Origin: Paracoccus fistulariae
GTDB lineage: Bacteria; Pseudomonadota; Alphaproteobacteria; Rhodobacterales; Rhodobacteraceae
NCBI RefSeq assembly: GCF_028553785.1
Contig: NZ_CP067136.1
Span: 1,116,001 to 1,180,000 of the forward strand
Length of the DNA stretch: 64,000 nt
Reading direction: 5' to 3'
Shown: piece after piece, positions 3,602 to 7,008 of the stretch
Layout of the letters: each line of letters begins with the position of its first letter
How positions within the stretch are numbered: the stretch's first letter is position 1
Translations under genes and position numbers: made by a program
Notes under the pieces: model-generated
The model's database searches: none
What the model was told of the DNA's origin: nothing
What the model saw: the letters and a program-made list of their open reading frames with translations, nothing else

Positions 3602-4081
3602 ATGTCGCGCTATCTCCGTCCCCGGATCCCGGGCGCTCCGATCTTTTTCACCGTCGCGCTGGCCCGGCGCGGCAGCCGGTTGCTGGTTCAGCAGACCGAC
3701 AGGCTGCGCGATGCGGTGCGCGCCACACGGGCCGAGCGGCCCTTCACGATCGAAGCCTGGGTCGTCCTGCCAGATCACCTGCATTGCATCTGGCGCTTGC
3801 CGGATGGAGATACGGATTATTCGACGCGCTGGCGGCTGATCAAATCGCGCTTCTCTCGCACGCTGCCCCTGGGCGACTTGCGCGACAGCCATATCCTGCG
3901 GCAAGAGCGCGGCATCTGGCAGCGCCGGTTCTGGGAACATCACATCCGCGATCAGGACAGCTTCAACGCATATCTGCGCTATTGCTGGTTCAACCCCGTC
4001 AAACACGGGTTGGTCGCAGCCCCCGGCGATTGGCCCTATTCCTCCTATCACCGCGAAAAGGCCCGAGGCATCGCCCCGTAG
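3602..4081 (+). CDS. REP-associated tyrosine transposase (RAYT), Y1 transposase family
   Basis: This 159-residue protein belongs to the IS200/IS605-like Y1 HUH nucleases. The HUH pair is visible as DHLHCIW near residues 58-64. The downstream helix SFNAYLRYCWFNPVKHGLV (about residues 120-138) carries the tyrosines and the NPVKHGLV phrase typical of RAYT proteins, which recognise and nick REP hairpins. It lacks flanking transposon ends and is a single-copy, domesticated-type gene. Three REP hairpins with 5' GTAG feet lie directly downstream, and the first one supplies the gene's own TAG stop codon. The length fits family members of about 150-170 residues. Confidence 0.9.
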   Translation: MSRYLRPRIPGAPIFFTVALARRGSRLLVQQTDRLRDAVRATRAERPFTIEAWVVLPDHLHCIWRLPDGDTDYSTRWRLIKSRFSRTLPLGDLRDSHILRQERGIWQRRFWEHHIRDQDSFNAYLRYCWFNPVKHGLVAAPGDWPYSSYHREKARGIAP

Positions 4082-4101
4082 GGTGCGTGTTTACACGCAC
4101 C
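4078..4101 (+). repeat. REP element 1 (overlaps the RAYT stop codon)
   Basis: GTAG is followed by a perfect 8-bp stem GGTGCGTG / CACGCACC with a TTTA loop. The 5' GTAG foot plus hairpin is the standard layout of RAYT-recognised REPs. The TAG inside the foot is the stop codon of the transposase gene. Confidence 0.9.
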
Positions 4102-4157: not shown

Positions 4158-4181
4158 GTAGGGTGCGTGTTCACACGCACC
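4158..4181 (+). repeat. REP element 2
   Basis: Same layout as REP 1 and in direct orientation: GTAG foot, GGTGCGTG / CACGCACC stem, TTCA loop. Only the loop differs from REP 1. Confidence 0.9.
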
Positions 4182-4206: not shown

Positions 4207-4230
4207 GGTGCGTGCGAGCACGCACCCTAC
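4207..4230 (-). repeat. REP element 3 (inverted)
   Basis: The same 8-bp stem in opposite orientation, with CTAC at its right end (GTAG on the minus strand) and a CTCG loop when read on that strand. REP 2 and REP 3 face each other, forming a BIME-like pair. It ends 5 bases from the stop of the minus-strand AT-rich gene. Confidence 0.9.
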
Positions 4231-4235
4231 GTTTG

Positions 4236-4625
4236 CTAAAATGGTGCCGTATCTAGATCCATTCTATCGAGTTCCTCTATCAACTCATCCAGCACTCTTT
4301 CAGCGCCCGTCGAGTTACGCTCTATTACTCTCAAAAGCTCCTTGAATCTCACGTAATAATCGCCACCCAAATCATCATCCGTAAAAATATCAATTTCTTC
4401 ATCAAAAAAATCACGAATGCTAATTCTTATTAGCGGAACATGGTTGCCGCTTTTATCTACACCATCGAACTCATCAAGAACGACGGTATTATCACCAATA
4501 CTAGTAACAAATTTTCCATGTTCGGCTGTATCATCCCACTTCAATCTTCCGATTGCAGATAGCCTCAAGAGGTGATCTGCAATTTTTTGCCACTTCTGAA
4601 TGGTATTTTGAGGGACGTCAGACAT
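4236..4625 (-). CDS. Acidic protein of unknown function, second gene of an AT-rich pair
   Basis: This 129-residue soluble protein is strongly acidic and has no signal peptide or membrane segment. It has an N-terminal helical part (IQKWQKIADHLLRL) followed by a likely mixed alpha/beta part with alternating DNTVVLDEF and PLIRISIRDFF strands, and a C-terminal acidic helix (RVLDELIEELDRM). I recognise no family. Its start overlaps the 3' end of the preceding minus-strand gene by 8 bases, so the two are translationally linked. Base composition is visibly much more AT-rich than the surrounding genome, and AT-ending codons are frequent, which points to recent acquisition. Confidence 0.65.
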   Translation of the reverse strand: MSDVPQNTIQKWQKIADHLLRLSAIGRLKWDDTAEHGKFVTSIGDNTVVLDEFDGVDKSGNHVPLIRISIRDFFDEEIDIFTDDDLGGDYYVRFKELLRVIERNSTGAERVLDELIEELDRMDLDTAPF

Positions 4626-5142
4626 TTTCTAACCTCGCAGTAGTTCGGAGTTGCTCGATGGCAATCAGCAGAGGCTCTTTCTGCTCGCCGACAAGCTTTC
4701 GCAGTTTTTTTGCATCCACGGGCACATTTGCGTCCATTACAGTTTTATCGGCCACCGTAGCGATCGAACGAAAATGAGTGCTGGCTTTGGCAAGTTGAGC
4801 ACGACTTTCCTCAGATAAAATCGGCTCTGTTTGAACAACTATCGAGCTGAGTGAATCTGCAATTCGGTTTGCTCTATCCACCACAAGAGCCCATCCCTTA
4901 TGGCCAATTATGACGTGAAGCTCATCAACCAAACCTGAGATCTTTGTGGTTTCAAACAAAAGATCAACGTTCAAAATCCTTGCTCTTGCCGCGTCCGCTG
5001 CAACTCTTGCCGCCTCTGCAGCAGATGTTGCTTTGTCCGCTGCATCCCGTGCCTCACGCGAAAAAAACACAGTGAGAAACGCGCCAACTATAGACACAAA
5101 AATCCCACCTAGAGCGTAGGTGTGAGCGAGCCAATCCTGCAA
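4618..5142 (-). CDS. Membrane-anchored coiled-coil protein of unknown function, first gene of an AT-rich pair
   Basis: This 174-residue protein has one N-terminal transmembrane segment (about residues 11-28). It is followed by an Ala/Arg/Glu-rich heptad-like region (about 29-58: REARDAADKATSAAEAARVAADAARA) that should be a coiled coil. A helical C-terminal domain of about 110 residues without recognisable motifs completes it. It appears to use a TTG start three bases after the lepA stop codon, with GGAG overlapping the lepA end as ribosome site. No ATG exists before the membrane segment. It overlaps the downstream acidic protein gene by 8 bases. The AT-rich composition marks it as foreign to the lepA neighbourhood. 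Confidence 0.65.
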   Translation of the reverse strand: MQDWLAHTYALGGIFVSIVGAFLTVFFSREARDAADKATSAAEAARVAADAARARILNVDLLFETTKISGLVDELHVIIGHKGWALVVDRANRIADSLSSIVVQTEPILSEESRAQLAKASTHFRSIATVADKTVMDANVPVDAKKLRKLVGEQKEPLLIAIEQLRTTARLENV

Positions 5143-5145
5143 TCC

Positions 5146-6942
<1,797 letters not shown>

Positions 6943-7008
6943 GCGCCGCATATACAGGGGCAGAATGGGCGCGGAAAGGGGGATTATCGCGCCGCCCGCA
7001 GCTTCTTG

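Follow-up and report, generated by a model that had tools for sequence, protein, structure and literature searches.

The DNA directly behind lepA is an insertion hotspot in this genus, and the AT-rich gene pair A/B described here is one occupant among many; we hold this with high confidence, and it is a context that the initial annotation of the window (the whole stretch of 64,000 nucleotides analysed) had missed. We propose, with moderate confidence, that the pair is a horizontally exchanged and probably anti-phage two-gene module that sits in this lepA cargo slot and would be expressed through lepA. Since the slot holds many different, often anti-phage genes in relatives, the pair is probably an undescribed immune module.

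Gene A (4618-5142, minus strand) starts with a TTG and encodes a predicted single-pass membrane-anchored protein of 174 aa, and gene B (4236-4625, minus strand) starts with an ATG and encodes an acidic soluble protein of 129 aa; the two genes share 8 nt (4618-4625). Upstream of gene A lies its host gene, lepA (elongation factor 4; 5146-6951, minus strand; Pfam GTP_EFTU and LepA_C), whose stop codon (5146-5148) forms the left border of the slot and is separated from the TTG by 3 nt (GGA; junction GATGGAGTGAGGATTG). The GGAG in the last lepA codons (5149-5152, minus strand), 6 nt before the TTG, is a likely ribosome-binding site, as judged from the junction. The DNA of the pair has ~45% GC, with 0.42-0.50 in the 500-nt windows that cover it and 0.58-0.69 in all other 500-nt windows of the first 12 kb. 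The initial annotation had described two overlapping minus-strand genes directly after lepA that contrast in composition with GC-rich neighbours, and the coordinates, the TTG, the 3-nt gap and the contrast were all verified. Its suggestion that the pair borrows lepA transcription fits the 3-nt gap, the GGAG at the lepA end and the like arrangement of many other inserts; because only 3 nt lie between lepA and gene A, the pair is most likely transcribed together with lepA.

We searched 394 genomes of the family, 385 of the class, 398 of the phylum and 125 of the genus, sets that overlap and for which the queries differ. Eight genomes, the source of the window included, carry a stand-alone B that is immediately preceded by A on the same strand. 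The pair lies at lepA in that genome, in two others of the genus (G1205 and G1227) and, directly after lepA, in one of another genus (G119); it lies away from lepA in the other four (G356, G670, G717 and G1105). The two genes overlap in seven of the eight and are 2 nt apart in G717. By eye, the neighbours of the pairs away from lepA are a resolvase and a tyrosine recombinase (G356), a resolvase and a TIR/SEFIR-like protein (G670), a sucB-like gene (G717) and a KAP-like NTPase (G1105). The A profile matched the upstream partners of these distant Bs with E-values of 2.1e-8 (G670), 3.3e-5 (G717), 9e-8 (G356) and 4.6e-9 (G1105), single-pair values for alanine-rich helical proteins that may be too good. 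Two observations speak against strict pairing: G745 has a B-like ORF for which no A was visible by eye, and in four genomes B-like sequence forms the N-terminal part of long proteins. These long proteins (L012-L015, from about 1483) have 390-492 aa, with an acidic proline-rich tail behind the B-like domain, and come from one family of the class. Matches of the B profile in G581 and G675 were internal stretches of a penicillin-binding-protein-like ORF, which we judged spurious by eye and excluded.

The relatives in other genera, at 24-34% identity and with the order kept, indicate that the pair is more than chance ORFs. Together with the fact that both frames are open, they also argue for selection on the pair, and so make it very improbable that it is a decayed mobile-element remnant under no selection, even though the low GC, the transposase-like neighbour and some slot inserts that look broken by eye (e.g. 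L126, in two pieces) would agree with such an origin.

Within the genus, B was found in three of 125 genomes, every time in the lepA slot. Compared with the window, LepA is 91% identical in G1205 and 94% in G1227, A is 52% and 31% identical, and B is 51% and 31% identical, respectively. The A of G1227 shares 51% with the A of the other genus (G119) vs 31% with that of the window. The B of G1227 is without this cross-genus pattern (34% to G119, 31% to the window and 35% to G1205), and B identities overall are 31-35%, except for the 51% between the window and G1205. The initial annotation had proposed to ask whether the pair co-occurs at different sites, and had seen the opposing case in a pair that is found only as an ancestral lepA neighbour; A and B stand together away from lepA in four genomes, and the pair was detected in three of 125 genus genomes. 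Judged from sequence, the pair behaves as a mobile unit that is exchanged horizontally, and not as an ancestral lepA neighbour. Vertical inheritance as an old member of the lepA operon, which would agree with the place of the pair after lepA in two genera, was rejected and has in our view almost no chance of being right, given the lack of detection in 122 of 125 genus genomes and the unrelated slot genes of the close relatives G1207 and G1234, whose LepA is 97% and 96% identical.

To describe the slot we used the genus lepA loci. LepA was found in 121 of the 125 genomes, and 117 of the 120 loci other than our own were taken together with the window; G1117, G1208 and G1224 were excluded, with lepA reaching the contig end. 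All loci were oriented on the lepA stop, where the oriented sequences start, and the left border of the AT-rich segment is thus fixed by construction. An AT-rich segment of at least 200 nt, mostly 0.3-1.7 kb in size, extends from the lepA stop onward in 43 of the 114 loci with at least 400 nt of DNA; the others count as unoccupied in the sense of not being AT-rich, and may contain GC-rich genes. AT-rich coverage goes from 40/109 loci at 0-200 nt to 26/109 at 800, 11/109 at 1000 and 0/109 at 2400 nt, and beyond this point, up to 4.8 kb, it is found in 0-2 of 105-109 loci. In the AT-rich segments 57 cargo ORFs were called, of which eight looked antisense or spurious by eye and were removed; the remaining 49 ORFs come from 39 loci. 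These form 42 families (blastp, E 1e-5), so that relatives carry differing cargo beside one and the same core gene; the A and B families are the only ones present in three genus slots. A family formed by L105:133-858, which has no Pfam match at E 0.01, and L191:4408-4992 is common to two lepA slots, as is a family of multi-spanning membrane-like proteins (L058:930-1736 and L060:1052-1717).

The first called ORF lies on the lepA strand in 33 of 43 cases, and its start is at most 12 nt from the stop in 18 of these 33 and at most 60 nt in 28, as counted on the full ORF list before the removal by eye; six of the 49 kept ORFs have the opposite orientation. Such anchoring of cargo on the lepA stop would be expected under selection for coupling to lepA, and agrees equally with either of the exchange routes considered below.

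We compared 20 of the 49 cargo proteins with Pfam, hand-chosen and the first ten because they were apparently recognisable; 11 passed a cut-off and nine passed none. The passing proteins matched AAA_15 (OLD-like), DUF6414, AAA_22, RelA_SpoT, AIPR, SDH protease, GmrSD_N with HNH, DUF6602, TIR_2 and DUF7946, and one was an NTPase-like protein with TIR_2. With PADLOC at E <= 1e-5, 139 families were matched in 48 of the 49 cargo ORFs and one in 66 controls, in an output that counts families and not ORFs with a match; 112 of the 139 were matched by one OLD-like protein (L059). Among the 25 families listed for the cargo are Old, AriA, GajA, AbiU, NsnA, NsnB and NucC, and also PDC-S59, PDC-S31, PDC-S33, PDC-S66, PDC-M34A/B and PD-T4-2_A. 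As controls we took ORFs of the same loci that lie over 2.2 kb further downstream, 68 by a GC3 rule of which two of more than 1100 aa were left out; some of them may not be real genes, and their only family was mad2, with two members. Both the family counts (48 vs 66 ORFs) and Pfam point to an enrichment of defence genes in the cargo over nearby genes, although some slot cargo matches no recognisable family.

From this location and from its make-up we consider a defence function of the pair reasonably probable. The idea of a compact defence or toxin-antitoxin module had already been put forward in the initial annotation; the location among defence cargo favors it, and the searches described below gave no toxin, nuclease or sensor family match. 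The pair could instead be an accessory membrane complex with no part in defence, acting for example in stress, in the envelope or in LepA-linked translation, and travelling horizontally. LepA is a membrane-linked translation factor, the pair matches no defence family and part of the slot cargo has no recognisable family either, all of which would suit such a complex; with four of the eight pairs located apart from lepA, a partnership with LepA is unlikely, and the slot cargo matches many defence families. We regard this alternative as improbable.

Protein A has one hydrophobic stretch (residues 10-28, mean KD 2.13) inside a predicted 79-residue helix. Its predicted fold consists of a helix of residues 2-80 and three further helices (pLDDT 84.8, pTM 0.64), and would thus comprise a transmembrane segment at about 10-28, a long stalk helix and a C-terminal helical bundle. 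Within the first 60 residues, the most hydrophobic stretch is N-terminal in each of the 12 A-like members computed, with 0-1 basic residues before it and 4-7 in the 25 residues after it; the transmembrane signal is weak in two of them (KD 1.04 in G119 and 1.34 in G1227). Because the basic residues lie mainly behind the hydrophobic stretch, the bundle is probably cytoplasmic, as predicted from KD and charge by the positive-inside rule. The fold of the bundle matches GIT1/FAT, the vinculin tail and sensor domains, a generic likeness to four-helix bundles of the GIT1/FAT/vinculin-tail type and to chemoreceptor ligand domains (PDB 6iuh, 6s33) that assigns no activity. Protein B has a pI of 4.4 and a net charge of -14, and the 11 B-like members computed have pI values of 4.2-4.8. 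It is predicted to fold into a helix, a four-stranded sheet region and C-terminal helices (pLDDT 88.7, pTM 0.77). Against viral structure predictions B gave one match below 1e-3, an uncharacterised siphovirus protein (TM 0.49/0.46, rmsd 6.5), which we did not accept as related.

Neither A nor B of the window passed a Pfam or NCBIfam cut-off, and neither had a PADLOC or PHROGs match better than E 0.002. The best PHROG for B was phrog_33767 (E 0.0021, function uncharacterised); in PADLOC-DB 2.0.0, A matched only 'Cyclase', over a 57-residue stretch (E 0.0028), and B matched nothing. Other members of the two families were compared with Pfam and PADLOC, and the window proteins also with NCBIfam and PHROGs. 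In PADLOC, 10 A-like members matched only 'Cyclase' (best E 6.1e-4) and 14 B-like members matched nothing at 0.1; the best Pfam E-values were 0.0021 for the 14 B-like and 0.0039 for the 10 A-like members. The 'Cyclase', nSTAND, BON and sCache hints for A were short or weak and were set aside. No toxin, antitoxin, nuclease, sensor or DNA-binding family was thus found above cut-off for A or B in Pfam, NCBIfam, PADLOC and PHROGs, or for the members in Pfam and PADLOC, in agreement with the earlier statement that neither protein has a known toxin or nuclease motif. The description of the pair as a membrane sensor plus a cytosolic partner holds for the predicted membrane anchor and finds no sensor family match, and the profile searches and structure predictions that had been recommended were run and gave no sequence or fold match that assigns A or B an activity. 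As far as library comparison goes, the pair is undescribed in Pfam, NCBIfam, PADLOC and PHROGs. Word-based searches of 5.8 billion proteins returned, with the queries counted in, five A-like and two B-like sequences, and seven sequences with a B profile. Window A and B had no match in viral contigs or plasmids, the distant member P0011 had none in plasmids or phages, A of G670 and B of G1105 had none in plasmids, and a scan of genome contigs gave no named relatives of A.

A membrane-effector mechanism is a tentative proposal that we consider possible. The pair would be co-transcribed with lepA and translated from the ribosome-binding site in the lepA end; a single N-terminal helix would anchor A in the inner membrane and leave its helical bundle on the cytoplasmic side; acidic B would bind this bundle and hold or trigger A; and upon infection A would assemble and impair the membrane or growth.

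Small overlapping co-directional genes for a membrane and a soluble partner are also typical of the known two-gene toxin-antitoxin and small two-gene defence systems, from which the pair differs in having no convincing model match in Pfam, NCBIfam, PADLOC-DB 2.0.0 or PHROGs. As an addiction pair, A would be a membrane toxin, B its acidic antitoxin, and the two would be kept by addiction. The strongly acidic partner of a membrane protein (pI 4.2-4.8 in the 11 B-like members), the patchy and mobile distribution of the pair and the RelA_SpoT protein among the other slot cargo would fit this, and in practice such a reading overlaps with defence. However, A exceeds typical small membrane toxins in length, the putative antitoxin is the second gene, and no toxin, antitoxin or DNA-binding family was found above cut-off; we therefore consider an addiction pair unlikely and continue to favor an anti-phage module.

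Defence hotspots beside core genes are an already known kind (PMC10250203, PMC8791490). The median sizes of the Pseudomonas aeruginosa core defense hotspots cDHS1 and cDHS2 are 26 kb and 6 kb; they share with the lepA slot a fixed place beside core genes and anti-phage genes that vary across isolates (PMC10250203). In comparison, the lepA slot is mostly 0.3-1.7 kb, holds one to three genes, lies directly on the lepA stop and in this genus often has REP/RAYT on its far side. Among the literature matches listed we found no report of a lepA hotspot, and the phrase 'downstream of lepA' was absent from the literature searched. An almost universal gene with a predictable landing place of 0.3-1.7 kb behind it offers a simple route to compact undescribed immune genes, and reading the DNA past the lepA stop in the genus and its relatives would give a short list of unknown cargo for phage assays, with the pair first.

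On the far side of the slot, beyond gene B, the window carries REP-like hairpins and a RAYT-like (Y1 transposase-like) ORF. The first hairpin (GGTGCGTGCTCGCACGCACC; 4207-4226, minus strand) begins 9 nt after the gene B stop and has GTAG before it on the minus strand; the other two lie on the plus strand at 4162-4181, with GTAG at 4158, and at 4082-4101, with GTAG at 4078, the latter at the end of the RAYT-like ORF. This ORF (3602-4081, plus strand) is convergent with the cargo and has one match in its own genome. The pattern GTAGGGTGCGTG has three matches beyond gene B, with a chance expectation of 0.16. A RAYT/REP locus is a Y1-transposase-like gene flanked by REP hairpins that carry GTAG; the likeness here lies in these parts, and the differences are that a variable cargo gene is bordered and that the Pfam Y1_Tnp match (E 0.0017, 18.9 bits) is below the cut-off of 23. 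Of the REP/RAYT border in the initial annotation, the REP hairpins with 5' GTAG are present, and the RAYT label is given by the sub-threshold Y1_Tnp match and the adjacent REPs.

A RAYT homologue is found no more than 2.5 kb from the lepA stop in 23 of 42 occupied vs 6 of 67 other slots (odds ratio 12, Fisher p 2.5e-7), a comparison that ignores kinship and in which the 42 occupied of 109 slots include L070 and L193, added by hand. The homologues at lepA slots are on the opposite strand every time. A perfect 8-bp hairpin starts at most 60 nt from the far end of the cargo in 15 of 22 RAYT loci and in none of 17 other cargo loci (39 loci), vs 12 of 1060 random places. In 12 hand-picked genomes, each of which has a RAYT near lepA, RAYT had one match in ten; the two matches of G1227 are adjacent pieces of one place, and G1131 has a true second copy. 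There (L295:3014-6410), an ettA-like ABC-F gene is followed after a few nt by an AT-rich gene for a membrane-like protein of 111 aa and a convergent RAYT (names by eye). No RAYT match was found near the pair in G119, G356, G670, G717 or G1105, which speaks against a role of RAYT in general.

Five of the eight exact-pattern REP sites of the window's genome lie elsewhere, at the 3' ends of carB-, tuf- and fusA-like genes (by eye; L292, L293, L294). These hosts are large conserved, mostly translation genes. No slot-like cargo was found at these other sites, so REP alone is not a marker of cargo.

The cargo could be exchanged in two ways: lepA and the RAYT/REP side could serve as flanks for homologous recombination, or RAYT could take a direct part. 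It is a speculative and rather unlikely extension that REP/RAYT is a cargo platform, in which a domesticated single-strand transposase and its hairpins would assist the uptake, replacement or retention of promoterless defence genes in the space from the lepA stop to the REP, and that the pair is a wholly new immune system; if true, this would add a novel route by which immune genes are placed on a housekeeping transcript. The link between REP/RAYT and cargo in this genus offers a concrete test of why these mostly single-copy transposase-like genes are kept.

The genus of the window is likely Paracoccus by sequence: plasmid partition genes of its genome resemble Paracoccus records at 84-85% in five of the eight matches listed, and Paracoccus accounts for 51 of 232 matching records. 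Outside the genus, we examined the named lepA loci that were the best 80 of 586 relatives. AT-rich DNA extends from the lepA stop in 17 of the 73 named alphaproteobacterial loci with enough DNA, including Tritonibacter, Loktanella, Phaeobacter, Jannaschia and Litoreibacter. Some of the stretches, with lengths of up to about 3 kb, could be ordinary islands, and the genes at these loci were judged by eye. A GC drop of at least 0.10 was seen in 14 of 68 loci at 0-300 nt, in 21 of 68 at 300-900 nt and in 0-3 of 68 beyond 2.7 kb, a count that tends to be low at the far end since the background was set from the far bins too. RAYT was found in two of these best 80 of 586 loci (L206 and L217). In L217 (Jannaschia aquimarina) the slot holds a SIR2-like protein (by eye) with the RAYT match just behind it, and the order of cargo and RAYT thus exists outside the genus. 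One locus labelled Bacillus subtilis (L244, JAHREI010000007.1) has a LepA part 79% identical to the alphaproteobacterial one, and is probably mislabelled or contaminated.
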